Notes under the pieces: model-generated
What the model saw: the letters and a program-made list of their open reading frames with translations, nothing else
Database searches by the model: none
Told to the model about the DNA's origin: nothing
In this document: positions 1,081-6,563 of the stretch, one piece after another
Position numbering within the stretch: position 1 is the stretch's first letter
How the letters are laid out: the number at the start of each line of letters is the position of its first letter
Program-made: the position numbers and the translations under genes
NCBI RefSeq assembly: GCF_037101375.1
Contig: NZ_AP029019.1
Span: 744,001-808,000, forward strand
Direction: 5' to 3'
DNA from: Acidovorax sp. DW039
GTDB lineage: Bacteria > Pseudomonadota > Gammaproteobacteria > Burkholderiales > Burkholderiaceae_C
DNA: 64,000 bases

Positions 1081-1515
1081 ATGACTGAAGCTCTGCATGT
1101 TGTTTGCCCCCACTGCCATGTGACCAATCGCGTGCAGGCGCCTCAGCTGGGCAGTGCCCCGGATTGCGGGCAGTGCCACAAGCCTTTGTTTGCAGGGGCT
1201 CCGCTGGAGCTGGATGGGGCGAGCTTTGACAAGCATGTCGCCCGCAACCAGATTCCTGTGGTGGTGGATTTCTGGGCACCCTGGTGTGGCCCATGTCGGC
1301 AGATGGCCCCAGCCTTTGCTCAGGCCGCACGAGAGCTGGAGCCGCGGGTACGCCTGACCAAACTGGATACCGAAGCCCATCCACAAATTGCAGCGCGCTA
1401 CGGTATCCGCAGCATTCCCACCATGATCCTCTTTCGCGGCGGTGCAGAAGTGGCGCGGGTCTCCGGCGCCATGGGGGCGGCCGACATTGCGCGGTGGGTG
1501 CAGGCTGCCAGTTGA
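1081..1515 (+). CDS. trxC: Thioredoxin 2 (TrxC) with N-terminal zinc ribbon
   Basis: A cytoplasmic protein-disulfide reductase of 144 residues. The N-terminus has two CxxC pairs (C9/C12 and C29/C32) that form the zinc-binding ribbon separating TrxC from TrxA. The redox motif WCGPC sits at 68-72, and the cis-proline loop SIPT follows later. The ATG at 1081 starts exactly at the zinc ribbon; the frame is open upstream to 1039 without homology. In other bacteria trxC is often under OxyR control; I see no clear OxyR site in the short gap to otsB. Confidence 0.93.
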   Translation: MTEALHVVCPHCHVTNRVQAPQLGSAPDCGQCHKPLFAGAPLELDGASFDKHVARNQIPVVVDFWAPWCGPCRQMAPAFAQAARELEPRVRLTKLDTEAHPQIAARYGIRSIPTMILFRGGAEVARVSGAMGAADIARWVQAAS

Positions 1516-1686
1516 TGCCACGCCAAAGGTAGGGACTGCCCCTCTGGGCGTATGAGCCTTACGAAAGCTTGCAATTTGCCAGGCGGTGCCTGAGCCATCC
1601 GGGTGTATCGGCCCGTAAGATTCCTCGCCCCCTGTAGCGGCTCTCCAGCGTTGGAGGCTACTGGGGCTTACCCAGGAATCTCCACC

Positions 1687-2145
1687 ATGTCATTTGTCCG
1701 CCACACACTGATTGCCCTGTTCTCTGCCGCTCTGGCAGTCTTTGCCTTCCTCGCGCCTGCCCATGCGCAGGACGAAAAGCCCGTTGTGAACCCTTACGGG
1801 CAATACCTCGCGGGGGACGGTCTCAAAATTGAGATCGCAACCTTTCTGGACAAGAATCAGCACGGGCTGAACGACATGCTCGTGAAAATCACTGGCGCTG
1901 CGGCCTACGAAGCGGGCATTGATGGCAAGACCCTTCGCTACACCGCCGAGCCCGCGGGCACAGGCTACAACCTTCAGCGCGGTGGGCGCAACCTGATGAG
2001 CGTGCGCTCTCCTTACGGACGCTGGCAGCAGATTGAGGTGTACCTTGCCGGGCGTACCTACCTGGTCACTCCCCGTGAAGAGATGGCGGAGCGCGTCATG
2101 CCGCTGCACCTGTTGACCGACTACCGCCAGAACGGCGGCAAGTAA
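1687..2145 (+). CDS. Secreted protein of unknown function
   Basis: A 152-residue protein with a clear Sec signal peptide: a hydrophobic stretch to about residue 25 ending in AHAQ. The mature part has no cysteines, is moderately basic and contains LTDYRQNGGK at its end. I do not recognise a family. The ATG at 1687 is chosen because the signal peptide begins there; the frame is open to 1603. It ends only 5 bases from the convergent DoxX gene of the bufferin operon. I see no copy of the sigma-F-like promoter before it, so a link to that operon is not supported. Confidence 0.7.
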   Translation: MSFVRHTLIALFSAALAVFAFLAPAHAQDEKPVVNPYGQYLAGDGLKIEIATFLDKNQHGLNDMLVKITGAAAYEAGIDGKTLRYTAEPAGTGYNLQRGGRNLMSVRSPYGRWQQIEVYLAGRTYLVTPREEMAERVMPLHLLTDYRQNGGK

Positions 2146-2150
2146 GCGCT

Positions 2151-2618
2151 TCAGCTTGCCTTGAATAGGCCCTGCGCCAGCACATGGTCCAGGGCCAGCA
2201 TTCCCCCACCCCGGCCTGCCAAGTACAGCATCAGCCCCGCCCATGACAGGTGGGTTGCCCAGGCGTCGGGGTACACAAACAGCTGGATCACCAGCGTCAT
2301 GCCCAGCAACCCCAAGGAAGACAGGCGGGTTGCCAACCCCAGCACCAGCATCACGGCCCCGGCGTGCTCACCCACCGTGGCTAGCTGCGCCGCCAGCTCG
2401 GGCGGCAAAACAGGCACCCGGTACTCATCCCGAAAAAGGGCATAGGTGCCTTCGGTGATGGTGAACCACCCTTCCACCTTGGTGCGAGCGGAGGCCCAGA
2501 AGATGCCAGCCAATGCCACGCGTGCCACCAGGGCCAGCAGGCTGTGGGGCGTGAGGGCTTCCATCACGGAAACGAAGCGGCGAGTCCAGGCTGTGGAATG
2601 AAGAGTGGTTGGAGGCAT
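2151..2618 (-). CDS. DoxX-family membrane protein, last gene of the bufferin operon (BufD-like)
   Basis: A 155-residue integral membrane protein of the DoxX/DUF417-like superfamily with about four hydrophobic segments (roughly 28-45, 76-95, 100-118, 124-145) and the FWASARTKVEGW motif after the first. DoxX proteins are commonly the fourth member of DUF2282-MNIO-DUF2063 operons, where a quinone- or thiol-linked redox role has been proposed. It starts 24 bases after bufC on the same strand, so it is almost certainly co-transcribed with it. Function in this operon is inferred from context. Confidence 0.85.
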   Translation of the reverse strand: MPPTTLHSTAWTRRFVSVMEALTPHSLLALVARVALAGIFWASARTKVEGWFTITEGTYALFRDEYRVPVLPPELAAQLATVGEHAGAVMLVLGLATRLSSLGLLGMTLVIQLFVYPDAWATHLSWAGLMLYLAGRGGGMLALDHVLAQGLFKAS

Positions 2619-2642
2619 GGCGATGTCCTGGGATGTGAAAAA

Positions 2643-3431
2643 TCAATAAGCGCCTTCAGGCAGCGCTAGCGCGCCCTGATGCAGCAGCAGCGCAATCAGC
2701 GCAGAGAGGTCGGTTTGCGGGTCTGCCAGCCAAGCCTGCTCGGCTGCGGACTGCAATGGCATGCCACGCTGGCACGCATTGAGAAACGCCACACCCGCTG
2801 GCGGCAGTGCAGCCCACAAGACCGAGTCGCCAGGGCGCGTCAAGAGCGCACCGTCAGGCTGCCAGGGCAAGTCTTCCGGGATCGCCACACCCTCACGGTG
2901 CAATTGCCAAAGCGTGCAGGCCGGGTGTTCTGCGCTCCATAGCCAGCGGGCGGCAGGGTGGGGGCTGACATGCGCTGTGGCCAGGGTCTCAGGGCTTTGT
3001 CGGGCGAGCCAGTTCGCGGGCAGGGGCGGGGCATCCGGTGCCATGTGGCATTCGGTCCAGTACCGGTCCAGACGTGCCAGCAGGGGCAGGTAAGGCATCT
3101 GCGCGGCAGGGGCAAATGCCTCCAGAAAGTGGGCGATGCCTTCTCCGTACAGCATCAGCCTCGCATCGTGCGGCGGGTGCTGTTGCGAATAGTGCTGCGC
3201 GAAGGCGCGGAACCACGCTTCTCCCACCACGGCGCAGACCGTGGGGTAGTTGGCTTGCAGGGCATCCACGCAGGCCTTGCGCACGGTGTTGCGGTACACG
3301 GCAAACGCGGGGTGGTGCACAGGCACCGGGGTTGGCTCCTGCCCGAGTGCGGTAGCGGCGGCCTCGCCATCGCCATGGCCCTGCGCCCACAGTGCGGCGG
3401 CAAAGCAGTCCTGAAACTCTTTCAGTCGCAT
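2643..3431 (-). CDS. bufC: DUF2063 bufferin maturation partner protein (BufC/HvfC-like)
   Basis: A 262-residue protein of the DUF2063 family (named in databases as a putative DNA-binding domain). It begins MRLKEFQDCFAAALWAQ and carries the family's FAVYRNTVRKACVDAL helix and YPTVCAVVGE segment. In bufferin and methanobactin-like systems this protein pairs with the MNIO enzyme and presents the precursor peptide; it is not thought to be a transcription factor there. The ATG at 3431 overlaps the end of bufB by 10 bases, indicating translational coupling. The frame is open to 3578, but that extension lies inside bufB. Confidence 0.88.
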   Translation of the reverse strand: MRLKEFQDCFAAALWAQGHGDGEAAATALGQEPTPVPVHHPAFAVYRNTVRKACVDALQANYPTVCAVVGEAWFRAFAQHYSQQHPPHDARLMLYGEGIAHFLEAFAPAAQMPYLPLLARLDRYWTECHMAPDAPPLPANWLARQSPETLATAHVSPHPAARWLWSAEHPACTLWQLHREGVAIPEDLPWQPDGALLTRPGDSVLWAALPPAGVAFLNACQRGMPLQSAAEQAWLADPQTDLSALIALLLHQGALALPEGAY

Positions 3432-4285
3432 GGCACCAGCTCCGGGCAAGGGCGCAGCAAATGGTGGGCGCGTTGTCGCTCCGCCATCAGCTCTGCAAAG
3501 GGCGGGAGTTGCTCGTCGCGCTCGATCAGCGTGGGCCGGGGCCCGGTGCGCTGCAGCACCTGCCGGTACAGCGCCCACACAGGTTCCGCCACCGGGGTGT
3601 CATGCCCGTCGATCAGCAAGCCCGCACCCAGGTCGGGGTCGGCATGGTGCCCCGCCAGATGGATCTCGCTGACCGCATGCAGGGGGTAGTCGTCCAGCCC
3701 GTGCGCGGGATCGTGCCCCAGGTTGCTTGCGCCCAGGTAGAGGTTGTTCACGTCCAGCAGCAAGGTGCAGCCCGTCTGCTGCACCAGCCGCTGTATGAAT
3801 TCCGGTTCATCCATGGTGTGACCGGGCAGCGGCAGGTAGTGCGCGGGGTTCTCGATGGCAATGGTGTGCTGCAGTGCGTCCTGCGTGCGCAGAACGTTGT
3901 CCACCACGCGTTGCAGCGATTGCTGGGTGCGCGGAAACGGCAGCAGGTCCGGGTGGTAAACCCCTTGCCACTGTGACCACGCAAGATGCTCTGACACCAG
4001 GGCGGGCTGGACCTCGCGAACCAGCCATGCCAGCCGCCGCAGTTGCTCGGCACAGGGGGGCGCGTCGGCGGCCAGGCTCAGTGAAACGCCGTGCAGTGAT
4101 ACCGGGTGGCGTTCGCGCACCGCCAGCAGCCAGGGCAGGCGGGGGCCGCCTTCGGCCATGTAGTTTTCGGGATGCACTTCCCACCACATGCCGGGGGCCT
4201 GGCAGTGCAGCGCATCTTCAAAATACACAGGCTTGAGCGACAGCCCTGCCGTCATGTCAGTCATGTCCGTTACGTCCCCGGTCAT
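3422..4285 (-). CDS. bufB: MNIO-family (DUF692) iron oxidase that modifies the bufferin peptide
   Basis: A 287-residue DUF692 protein with a TIM-barrel fold. Conserved metal-ligand motifs appear in order: EVHPENY, HGVSLSL, SEHLAW, IENPAHY, LLLDVNNLYL, EIHLAGH, LIDGHDTPV and LIERDEQLP. MNIO enzymes use two or three iron atoms and O2 to turn peptide cysteines into heterocycles. The start at 4285 has AAGGGGA about 10 bases upstream. The gap to bufA is 19 bases and the overlap with bufC is 10 bases, so this is one operon. The class assignment is strong; the product chemistry is inferred from the family. Confidence 0.9.
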   Translation of the reverse strand: MTGDVTDMTDMTAGLSLKPVYFEDALHCQAPGMWWEVHPENYMAEGGPRLPWLLAVRERHPVSLHGVSLSLAADAPPCAEQLRRLAWLVREVQPALVSEHLAWSQWQGVYHPDLLPFPRTQQSLQRVVDNVLRTQDALQHTIAIENPAHYLPLPGHTMDEPEFIQRLVQQTGCTLLLDVNNLYLGASNLGHDPAHGLDDYPLHAVSEIHLAGHHADPDLGAGLLIDGHDTPVAEPVWALYRQVLQRTGPRPTLIERDEQLPPFAELMAERQRAHHLLRPCPELVPCD

Positions 4286-4304
4286 TGCACGGTTCCCCTT
4301 CAGA

Positions 4305-4595
4305 TCAGGACTTCATGGGGGTCAGCGAACCCATGCCCTTCGGGGTCTTGATGCTGGTGCAGGTGCCTGCGGGCACCAGCTTCCAGGCGTTGCTCTGGTA
4401 GTCCATCTTGGACGTGCCAGCGCAGGTGGTGCCGGGCCCTGCGGCGCAATCGTTCTTGCCTGCGAGCGATACGCCATAGCATTTCTCCGTAGCGGGCTTC
4501 GCGCCCTCTGCGGGCATGTTCTGCGCCAGGGCTGCGCCTGAGGCCAGGGCGGCCAAGGCCAGTGCGCTGAGGGTGCGGGTGGTGCATGTTGTCAT
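4305..4595 (-). CDS. bufA: DUF2282 bufferin precursor peptide (metal-binding RiPP)
   Basis: A 96-residue precursor with a Sec signal peptide to about residue 24 (ALAQ). The mature part has four cysteines, C39 (EKCYGV), C50 (KNDCAAG), C58 (TTCAGTS) and C79 (AGTCTSI), the arrangement of the DUF2282 family. In bufferins the MNIO partner converts some of these cysteines to thiooxazoles that bind copper in the periplasm. AGGAGA lies just before the ATG. It is the first gene of the operon, about 95 bases downstream of a perfect GTAACC-N16-CGAA promoter. Confidence 0.9.
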
Positions 4596-4690
4596 CTGAT
4601 TTCTCCTGATGGCCTTGAAGCCGTTGGTGATGAAGAGGGTTTCAGACCAGCAAGCCTGTGCACTAGGTGCTGCCAGCCGGTCTGTGCGTT

Positions 4691-4718
4691 AATTCGCAAG
4701 GGGCTGCGTTGCGGTTAC
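4691..4718 (-). promoter_or_regulatory. Sigma-F-like ECF promoter of the bufferin operon
   Basis: On the reverse strand, GTAACC (4718-4713) is followed after exactly 16 bases by CGAATT (4696-4691). This is the same -35/-10 pair and spacing as the promoter before the sigma gene at 4755-4781, facing the other way. It matches the recognition pattern reported for Caulobacter sigma-F targets. It lies about 95 bases before the bufA start. Confidence 0.82.
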
Positions 4719-4754
4719 CGTGGGCAGCAAAAAAAAATTAAAAATATTCCAGCT

Positions 4755-4781
4755 GTAACCGGCAGGGGTATCCATCCGAAT
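4755..4781 (+). promoter_or_regulatory. Autoregulatory sigma-F-like ECF promoter of the sigma/anti-sigma genes
   Basis: GTAACC (4755-4760), exactly 16 bases, then CGAAT (4777-4781). Together with the mirror copy at 4691-4718 it indicates that the sigma factor drives both its own gene and the bufferin operon. An A/T-rich stretch (4730-4748) separates the two. Confidence 0.82.
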
Positions 4782-4872
4782 ACAGGGTGGGCGTGCAGAA
4801 CGGTCTGTGCTCGCGTCTCGGGTCGAGAGGCGGAGCGGGCAGCAGAGGTTGCGCGCCCCCGGAGAGGGGAAC

Positions 4873-5415
4873 ATGGAGATTGAAGAGCAGCTGCGAACCC
4901 TCTGGTTGCGAGGGTTGGAGGCAGATGCAGCGGCATACCAGCAGTTTTTGAAACAGCTCAGTGCCCACCTGCGCAGCTTTTTGCGCAGGCGACTGGCACA
5001 GCGCCCCGACGAAGTGGAGGACCTGGTGCAGGAGACATTGCTTGCGGTGCACAACCAGCGCCACACCTATCGCCGCGAGATGCCGGTGACGGCCTGGGCC
5101 TATGCCATTGCCCGCTACAAGCTCATCGACTGGCTGAGGTCGCACCGCGTCAAGGAGGCGCTGAACGATCCGCTGGACGATGCACAGGAGCTGTTTGCCA
5201 GCACGGATGACGAAGCATCAACCGCTCAAAGGGATCTGGGCCAGCTGCTGCAGACCCTGCCGGAGCGCCAGCGCCTGCCCATCGTGCATGTCAAGCTGGA
5301 AGGCCTTTCTGTTGCAGAGACAGCCCGTTTGACGGGCATGTCCGAGTCAGCCGTCAAAGTAGGCGTGCACCGGGGGCTCAAGGCCCTGGCTGTACGGATC
5401 AGGGGAACCGTATGA
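4873..5415 (+). CDS. sigF: ECF RNA polymerase sigma factor, sigma-F-like, controlling the bufferin operon
   Basis: A 180-residue sigma-70 family protein. Region 2 contains [19 protein letters not shown] and [16 protein letters not shown]; region 4 contains [18 protein letters not shown] and [19 protein letters not shown], the helix-turn-helix that reads the -35 box. The ATG at 4873 has GGAGAGGGGA directly upstream; the frame is open back to 4807 without sigma homology. The stop overlaps the start of the DUF1109 gene as ATGA. The divergent bufferin operon and shared promoter sequence make it the likely regulator of both units. Confidence 0.9.
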
Positions 5416-6053
5416 AAACCGATGAATGGATTGGCGTATTGGCCGCGAGTGCGGCCGAAGACCTGCAACCCCGCGTTGAACCGCGGGTGGTGCGGGCCGC
5501 GGTGGTGGGGCTGGCAGGTGCCGCAGTGTTGATGTTGACGTTTTTCGGCGTCAGACCAGACCTTGTCCAGACCCTGGCGCTGCCCATGTTCTGGGGCAAG
5601 CTGGCCTTTGCTGCGGCCCTGGCGGTGCCCTGCCTGTGGGCTGTGTTGCGACTGGCGCGGCCCGGGGCCAAGGCCTTACCGGCTGCGGGATGGATTGCGA
5701 TGCCCGTGGCCGTGATCTGGGGCCTGGGTGGGTGGGAGCTGTGGCAGCAGCCTGCCAGCCTGCGCATGCCCATGGTGCTGGGAACCACCTGGCGCACTTG
5801 CCCGTTCAACATTGCCTTGCTGGCGGTACCCGCCCTTCTGGCGGGGTTGTGGGCCTTGCGGGGCGGGGCGCCCACGCGCCCAGGGTGGGCAGGTGCTGGC
5901 GCGGGCTTGCTGGCCGGTGCTTTGGCCGCGCTGGTCTACGCCCTGCATTGCCCCGAAATGGCCGCGCCTTTTCTGGCGGTGTGGTACGTGGTGGGCATCG
6001 CCATCCCTACCGCGCTGGGGGCCTTGCTGGGGGCGCGTTGGCTGCGTTGGTAA
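5412..6053 (+). CDS. nrsF: DUF1109 (NrsF-like) membrane anti-sigma factor
   Basis: A 213-residue polytopic membrane protein with about six hydrophobic segments (starting near 28, 62, 92, 130, 160 and 188) and a short cytoplasmic N-terminus. Two cysteines, C130 in TWRTCPF and C180 in LHCPEM, sit where a conserved cysteine pair is reported in Caulobacter NrsF, which holds its sigma factor at the membrane until chromate, cadmium or copper stress. A third cysteine is at 74. It overlaps the sigma gene by 4 bases, so sigma and anti-sigma are made together. Confidence 0.87.
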
Positions 6054-6110
6054 GAGTTGCGCTCTTGGTACTCTGCTGCGCGCCGGCAGGTTCCAGGTAA
6101 ACGTGGGGCG

Positions 6111-6563
6111 TTACTGCACGCGCCGCGTGTAGGCGCGAAACACCGTGTCCAGCTCCCAGCCCATGGATTCATACAACGACTGGGCCGTGCGGTTGGTGTG
6201 TGCTGTGGTCAGGTCCATGCGCACGCGCCCATGGCGGCGGGCATGGTCTTCGGCAGCCAGCAGCAGGAAGCGGCCAGCGCCCTGGCCTCGTGCCGCTGGG
6301 CTCACGAACAGGTCGTACAGCACATAGATGGGGGCGGCTTCCACTGAGCAAAAGCTCGGGTACAGCTGGCAAAAGCCCACGGCTGCCTCCGCGTCATCTT
6401 GCGCCAGCAAAATCACGGACTCTTGCCGTGCAAGTCTTTCGTGGATGAACTGCGCAGCTCGCTGCAGGTCTGCGGGCTGTTCGTAGAACTGGCGATAGGC
6501 ATCGAACAAAGGCGCGATCGCTGGTACGTCATGCAGTGTGGCGGGGCGGATATGCAGGCTCAT
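6111..6563 (-). CDS. GNAT-family N-acetyltransferase
   Basis: A 150-residue single-domain GNAT protein. MSLHIRPATLHDVPAIAPLF forms the first strand and helix. The acetyl-CoA binding motif A is YDLFVSPAARGQGAGRFLL (R/Q-x-x-G-x-G/A), and the C-terminus has AQSLYESMGWE. The substrate cannot be told from sequence. The ATG at 6563 is preferred over the open frame to 6626 because the fold starts there. It lies 8 bases downstream of cca on the same strand, so it is probably co-transcribed. Confidence 0.85.
   Translation of the reverse strand: MSLHIRPATLHDVPAIAPLFDAYRQFYEQPADLQRAAQFIHERLARQESVILLAQDDAEAAVGFCQLYPSFCSVEAAPIYVLYDLFVSPAARGQGAGRFLLLAAEDHARRHGRVRMDLTTAHTNRTAQSLYESMGWELDTVFRAYTRRVQ

Follow-up and report, generated by a model that had tools for sequence, protein, structure and literature searches.

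A type-1 bufferin operon divergent from a sigma-F/NrsF pair in Acidovorax sp. DW039, with exact sigma-F promoter motifs on both sides of the intergenic region and at msrP

The 64,000-nucleotide (nt) stretch of Acidovorax sp. DW039 analyzed here (contig NZ_AP029019.1, positions 744,001 to 808,000; hereafter the window) carries six genes within positions 2151-6053 that together form a divergent bufferin locus. An operon on the reverse strand at 2151-4595 encodes a DUF2282 precursor, followed by an MNIO enzyme, its DUF2063 partner and a protein of the DoxX family (bufABC-doxX), and it is divergent from the genes of an extracytoplasmic function (ECF) sigma factor and an NrsF anti-sigma factor, the intergenic region between bufA and sigF being 277 bases long. 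The operon is ordinary in kind, a type-1 bufferin operon; what is new is the presence of the exact sigma-F promoter motif on both sides of the intergenic region and at a third site, upstream of the distant gene msrP. The features of the locus are as follows:

4305..4595, reverse strand: bufA, DUF2282 (Buf1) bufferin precursor, 96 amino acids (aa); Pfam PF10048 score 90.2, gathering cut-off 22.4
3422..4285, reverse strand: bufB, MNIO-type enzyme (BufB maturase), 287 aa; PF05114 (MbnB_TglH_ChrH) 306.2, cut-off 25
2643..3431, reverse strand: bufC, DUF2063 partner protein, 262 aa; PF09836 72.2, cut-off 27.2
2151..2618, reverse strand: DoxX-family membrane protein, 155 aa; PF07681 63.1, cut-off 23.6
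4873..5415, forward strand: sigF, ECF sigma factor, 180 aa; Sigma70_r4_2 53.7, cut-off 25.7, and Sigma70_r2 49.4, cut-off 24
5412..6053, forward strand: nrsF, NrsF/DUF1109-type membrane anti-sigma factor, 213 aa; PF06532 225.1, cut-off 26.8
4693..4718, reverse strand: sigma-F-type promoter motif GTAACC-N16-CGAA, reading into bufA; exact match
4755..4780, forward strand: sigma-F-type promoter motif GTAACC-N16-CGAA, reading into sigF-nrsF; exact match

The original prediction, made from the sequence alone, had described a DUF2282-MNIO-DUF2063-DoxX operon divergent from an ECF sigma factor and a DUF1109 membrane protein. All six genes were present with their families above cut-off, including the four operon proteins in the profile searches that it had proposed as a check (PF10048, PF05114, PF09836 and DoxX), and its spacings were correct (bufA-bufB gap of 19 bases, bufB-bufC overlap of 10, bufC-doxX gap of 24). 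DUF1109 is the family that Pfam at present names NrsF. The sigF frame, which overlaps nrsF by 4 bases, matched NCBIfam NF009188 at 302 bits (cut-off 250), and its start is ambiguous between ATG 4873, preceded by a purine-rich stretch, and GTG 4807. A genome search identified a single MNIO gene and a single DUF2282 gene.

BufB was assigned to the bufferin-maturase equivalog MNIO_BufB (NCBIfam NF050167; 335.6, cut-off 310) and fell below the NCBIfam models of other MNIO equivalogs (HvfB 202.5 against a cut-off of 360; ApyH, ChrH and MbnB were also missed). In the alignment, its residues H100, E145, D178, H209, D226, H228 and E255 are identical to those of the DUF692 structure 3bww and of MbnB (7dz9), and we take these seven residues to be metal ligands. 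BufC had no match to a C-terminal RiPP recognition element model in the profile search, and none among solved structures at E values up to 0.1. Similarly, BufA had no NCBIfam match and none among solved structures at E values up to 1. The four cysteines predicted for the mature precursor were found at C39, C50, C58 and C79, with a further one (C4) in the signal segment; the predicted signal peptide was seen by eye only, as a signal-like segment to A24 (R7, a hydrophobic run and ALA before Q25). In Buf1 peptides the central cysteines are reported to be modified and the outer two to form a disulfide, the modification being listed as thiooxazole (PMC12452194), and 5-thiooxazoles are reported as a widespread product of MNIO-DUF2063 clusters, with other modifications left possible by the authors (PMC13097082). 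By analogy, C50 and C58 are expected to be modified and C39 and C79 to form a disulfide. For the presumed mature peptide Q25-S96 the calculated monoisotopic mass is 7293.45 when unmodified, and it would fall to 7283.37 (10 H fewer) with a -4H heterocycle at each of two cysteines and a single disulfide. Bufferins improve growth under copper stress (PMC12452194), and we infer from the same homologues that the Acidovorax peptide would be cysteine-modified and bind copper.

The sigma-F promoter of Caulobacter is GTAACC-N16-CGAA (PMC3511200), and the ECF16 consensus given in a Brucella paper, (T/C)GTAAC-N17-CGAA, has equal spacing in another notation (PMC8315932). The window contains exactly two exact matches, one per strand and both in the bufA-sigF intergenic region, against an expectation of 0.04, and the stretch between the two -35 boxes is AT-rich. 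Three of the five exact sites in the 5.2 Mb genome are this pair and the one upstream of msrP. The other two may be due to chance: L003 lies inside a long open frame, and L004 (G000:C1:3410909-3410934) lies ~20 nt upstream of a frame that is presumably polyphosphate kinase. As a genome-wide regulon finder the motif was rejected, given 5 exact sites versus 12 for the reversed control and 128 versus 387 with one mismatch. Since sites are no more frequent than those of the reversed control, the motif is informative by its place and not by its number.

This placement recurs in relatives. In a set of 200 genomes of the family, 13 had a composite pattern of both boxes back to back with 20-50 bases between them, and the reversed control had 0 matches. 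All 13 are among the 37 genomes that carry NrsF, and by coordinates the pair adjoins sigF-nrsF in 13/13; the other side of the pair is occupied by a DUF2282 gene in 11/13, by a cytochrome-b/MsrP-like set in G287 (L133) and by a radical-SAM gene in G470 (L134). Across 30 NrsF loci from these 37 genomes, a 420-nt stretch at the aligned sigF start contained an exact forward motif in 23 and an exact reverse one in 17. At the best 30 DUF2282 loci, from 117 DUF2282-bearing genomes, the 500 nt upstream of BufA contained the exact motif in 10/15 cases where the genome bears NrsF and in 0/15 where it does not (Fisher p 2e-4; p values of the motif tests, here and below, ignore relatedness). The motif, ending in CGAA or CGTA, also precedes BufA where the operon is codirectional with sigF-nrsF (L145, L146 and L148) or convergent to it (L147). 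Farther afield, one of seven relatives from a protein-query scan, a Rhodoferax metagenome-assembled genome (L009) in which the motif was read, has the same six genes with exact back-to-back motifs, and an Asticcacaulis plasmid (L245) has a near version ending in CGTA on both sides. Two Variovorax paradoxus replicons (L243, L244) have the motif before bufA, and the 8.8 kb searched there gave a match neither to sigF nor to NrsF. A conjugative plasmid of Stenotrophomonas rhizophila (L247, CP031732) has two DUF2282 genes, NrsF twice in a translated search, and motifs; one of the NrsF matches there is without an annotated gene, and merR, merT and merP lie nearby.

NrsF carries C130 and C180, of which C130 is kept in 46/46 and C180 in 43/46 aligned NrsF proteins; the three proteins that lack C180 (L025, L027 and L028) are all from distant class loci, and in the closer set both cysteines are present in 36/36. 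Substitution of C131 or C181 in Caulobacter raises the regulon without stress, and chromate frees sigma-F (PMC3511200). We take C130 and C180 as the presumed counterparts of these residues, and likewise take them to face the periplasm as they do there, in which case metal or oxidant would release the sigma factor by analogy. The predicted sigma/anti-sigma control thus gained a published sigma-F promoter, exact on both flanks, and both signal-relevant cysteines. NrsF is uncommon at the class level, being identified in 17/274 genomes, 12 of them above cut-off.

The third site begins 136 nt upstream of a gene identified as msrP (NCBIfam 488.8 bits, cut-off 207), which is followed by an MsrQ-like frame; the fragment scanned gives MsrQ 86.4, under the cut-off of 130. 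To compare msrP loci, the 37 NrsF-bearing genomes of the family and 37 of the 163 NrsF-lacking ones were searched, giving MsrP matches in 35/37 and 36/37, and close relatives (E below 1e-99) in 32/37 and 34/37, respectively. An exact motif was present upstream of msrP in 12/30 NrsF-bearing versus 0/30 NrsF-lacking loci (p 1.2e-4), based on the best 30 loci per side, with the MsrP start approximated from a motif and with only 255 of the 360 nt upstream available for L178. Within one genus, G413 has both NrsF and the msrP motif, and G277 has neither. When NrsF-bearing genomes were divided by cargo, a split made after seeing the data, the motif was found in 10/12 genomes with a bufferin divergon versus 2/18 others. 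A tally from coordinates placed 28 of 43 exact sites at bufA, sigF or msrP in this genome and nine relatives; the nine, out of 36 other NrsF-bearing genomes, were picked for their bufferin divergons and are hence a biased sample, outside which lie the bufferin-divergon genomes G317, G399, G463 and G346. These patterns suggest that sigma-F/NrsF might activate, in addition, an enzyme that repairs oxidized proteins. Caulobacter sigma-F controls two operons of the bufferin kind and, in part, a YedY (MsrP) gene (PMC3511200), and by analogy we infer that the msrP motif could be a working promoter. In the literature searched, a link between bufferins, Msr and NrsF/ECF regulators surfaced only via the Caulobacter and Brucella papers.

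The original prediction named the Caulobacter sigma-F/NrsF locus as the counterpart, and as to gene families this held: the locus CC3252-CC3257 of Caulobacter crescentus has the same gene families, matching the gene list in print (PMC3511200), and the same promoter consensus. A second sigma-F-controlled operon there (CC2905-2907) has no equivalent in the window genome with its lone MNIO and DUF2282 genes. By gene order, however, no studied locus is closer than gigPABT-rpoQ-rsqA of Cupriavidus metallidurans; in strain CH34 its six genes are the same and in an identical divergent arrangement, although on a chromid, unlike the window locus. Identities to the CH34 proteins over the aligned parts are 64% for BufA, 58% for BufB, 45% for BufC, 59% for DoxX, 65% for the sigma factor and 46% for NrsF, and the exact paired GTAACC-N16-CGAA motif lies between gigP and rpoQ (L015) as it does in the window. 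Control of gig by RpoQ is reported as undemonstrated (PMC11022561, PMC10304878), a question described as not demonstrated in 2024 (PMC11022561) and as still unexplained in 2026 (PMC13192273), and one of these reports states that no promoter was identified upstream of gig (PMC10304878). A 2024 table gives a roughly twofold rise of rpoQ under a mixture of metals (PMC11647585). The string GTAACC had no whole-word occurrence in the portion of the C. metallidurans literature searched, a 2019 sigma-factor paper being outside that scope. The BcrS/AbcS-BcrXQP system of Brucella melitensis (ECF16) shares the sigma/anti-sigma type, the promoter consensus and the NrsF cysteines; its operon is MXKDX-MsrQ-MsrP, for resistance to hypochlorous acid (HOCl), and a bufferin operon goes unmentioned in the accessible parts of the paper (PMC8315932). 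Lastly, the Buf1 clusters of an MNIO survey have the same precursor-MNIO-DUF2063-DoxX core, some with sigma and NrsF genes (PMC12452194), and since such clusters are already in print the window operon is of a known kind. In the parts of that survey available, neither the promoter motif nor a remote msrP target is mentioned; a few of its EGKCG-type MNIO clusters do include oxidored_molybd and ferric-reductase-family genes (PMC12452194), which is an earlier hint of an MsrPQ-like link.

Given these lines of evidence, we consider it very probable that the type-1 bufferin operon of the window is controlled by the adjoining sigma-F/NrsF pair, which would also feed back on its own genes and reach msrP elsewhere in the genome. 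NrsF would hold sigma-F at the inner membrane until soft metals or oxidants hit its two cysteines and free sigma-F, which would then fire the two back-to-back promoters, one for bufABC-doxX and the other, as feedback, for sigF-nrsF, together with the distant msrP(Q) promoter. BufB and BufC would oxidize C50 and C58 of BufA, probably to thiooxazoles; BufA would be exported by Sec, its C39-C79 disulfide would close and copper would be bound in the periplasm, and MsrPQ would repair methionines oxidized by the same stress.

A number of observations weigh against this reading and are gathered here. The exact motif is not enriched genome-wide, with 43 sites versus 48 for the reversed control in this genome and its nine relatives, and nine more distant class NrsF loci (L022-L030) have 0 exact forward and 4 exact reverse motifs. 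It was absent from 18/30 NrsF-bearing msrP loci and from 5/15 NrsF-bearing BufA loci, the latter comprising three precursors that are unlinked and belong to another subtype (G411, G466 and G451) and two linked ones, G344, with a spacing of 17 in a looser scan, and G448, with no motif there. The BufA test is also confounded by precursor subtype, assigned by eye: the 30 family DUF2282 loci (L014, L079-L107) fall into a window-type subtype of 13 loci, 11 of them from NrsF-bearing genomes and the window among them, and another (AGQNDCANLSGTHSCAGQSK..D) of 17 loci, 4 of them from NrsF-bearing genomes. The motif accompanied 9/11 NrsF-bearing and 0/2 NrsF-lacking window-type precursors, and 1/4 and 0/13 of the other subtype, respectively. 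Three NCBIfam equivalogs were missed (AntiSigF_NrsF 140.3 against 300, HvfC 22 against 142 and HvfX 43 against 80). Autoregulation of sigF is not strong in Caulobacter (PMC3511200), so that the motif on the sigF side need not mean strong feedback. Finally, rpoQ-rsqA of C. metallidurans was assigned to RpoD, and metal-treated cells lacking rpoQ expressed gig more strongly instead of losing its expression (PMC10304878).

It was also predicted that the locus makes a periplasmic copper-binding, ribosomally synthesized and post-translationally modified peptide under metal-stress control. The bufferin type was borne out; copper binding and modification are carried over from homologues, and a metal signal is only one reading of the regulator, which may be induced by oxidation and not by metal itself. 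Inducers reported in relatives are copper and gold for gig (PMC10304878), chromate and cadmium in Caulobacter (PMC3511200) and HOCl in Brucella (PMC8315932). One alternative is that the locus primarily answers oxidants (HOCl or thiol oxidation), with the bufferin as a sacrificial or metal-silencing sulfur peptide and copper as one trigger among others. In Brucella the same regulator class answers HOCl by driving MXKDX-MsrQ-MsrP (PMC8315932), a tie between RpoQ and thiol homeostasis is reported for C. metallidurans (PMC11022561), the survey's oxidored_molybd and ferric-reductase-family neighbors point the same way, as does the msrP motif in the window genome, and in several relatives the motif pair faces a cytochrome-b/MsrP-like set; the induction of gig by copper and gold (PMC10304878) and the benefit of bufferins under copper stress (PMC12452194) argue for metal instead, and we regard the oxidant account as rather unlikely. 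Much less probable is that a housekeeping or other sigma factor drives the operon and that the conserved motif is weakly used or unused in this lineage. The survival of gig expression after rpoQ deletion (PMC10304878) would fit it, but exact motifs on both sides in 13/200 family genomes with 0 control matches do not, nor does a sigma-70-type scan of 1500-6200, the sole site of which, at 1829, is outside the intergenic region. Equally improbable is a different MNIO modification, or a peptide that mainly binds gold, silver, mercury or cadmium, for which the induction of CC3254-3257 by chromium and cadmium (PMC3511200) and the merR/merT/merP genes near the Stenotrophomonas plasmid relative can be cited, against a BufB above the bufferin-maturase cut-off and the 5-thiooxazoles broadly, if not exclusively, reported for MNIO-DUF2063 clusters (PMC13097082).

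The genes beside sigF-nrsF vary among relatives. When cargo labels were mapped on a tree of 36 NrsF proteins, divergent bufferins required 9 changes, of which well-supported branches force at least 7, a total as low being reached in 28/500 shuffles, and the MsrP-like label required 4; all six cargo labels together need 14, below all 200 shuffles (mean 19.7). Because the label changes recur on the tree, yet are fewer than when shuffled, the cargo appears to be swapped but partly inherited. These labels were hand-assigned, four rows being "other" and three of the four radical-SAM/VTT labels resting on inspection by eye or one gene, and counted among the divergent bufferins are L016, which has the precursor gene alone, L019, which is split, and L050, which has a distant precursor. 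The tree and the first alignment left out G362, G462, G346, G451, G276, G396 and G411, as well as the class loci L022-L031, which were later added to the cysteine count. A divergent motif pair faces a cytochrome-b/MsrP-like set in L133, L135, L151, L017, L018 and L246. At L139 (G300), a six-cysteine Buf2-like precursor, classed by eye (3983-4276, reverse strand), is divergent from sigF-nrsF and accompanied by a fused MNIO-DUF2063 protein (2125-3861, reverse strand); sigma and NrsF genes were found only at Buf1 clusters according to the part of the survey available (PMC12452194), and L139 may be an exception to this rule. At L142 (G455), an EGKCG-like precursor (by eye), an MNIO gene (Pfam-confirmed) and DUF2063-like and DoxX-like genes lie beside sigF-nrsF, as do, by eye, MNIO, DUF2063-like and DoxX-like genes at L149 (G360). 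The precursors of L139, L142 and L149 had no Pfam family match. Elsewhere the neighbor of sigF-nrsF is a radical-SAM/DUF3641 gene, as shown for L134, or encodes a VTT/DUF547 protein, as shown for L144; L140 and L141 were judged by eye.

For the family and its neighbors, we tentatively propose, at somewhat less than even chances, that sigma-F/NrsF with its promoter pair is a portable switch for periplasmic sulfur damage with swapped cargos (Buf1 bufferins, Buf2-like or EGKCG-like MNIO peptides, MsrP-like/MXKDX sets, a radical-SAM gene). On this proposal the bufferin-bearing form would usually own msrP as well, and bufferins would be part of an oxidation-protection response, sequestering copper while MsrPQ repairs oxidized methionines. 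The locus is of interest for supplying a testable promoter for the question of RpoQ control, and for the way in which bufferins and methionine sulfoxide repair are repeatedly linked. With the exact pair present both at gig and in the window, the former question is reducible to two sites; from the recurrence of the msrP motif it is predicted that cells make the copper peptide and repair methionines in a single response, and this, if so, would tell what bufferins protect against.

Two further frames lie beyond the operon on the forward strand. At 1687-2145 a secreted-looking 152-aa protein, with no Pfam or NCBIfam match, converges on the DoxX gene. At 1039-1515, 0.6 kb past the DoxX end, is a frame that by eye is thioredoxin-like, with a CGPC motif and N-terminal CxxC pairs.

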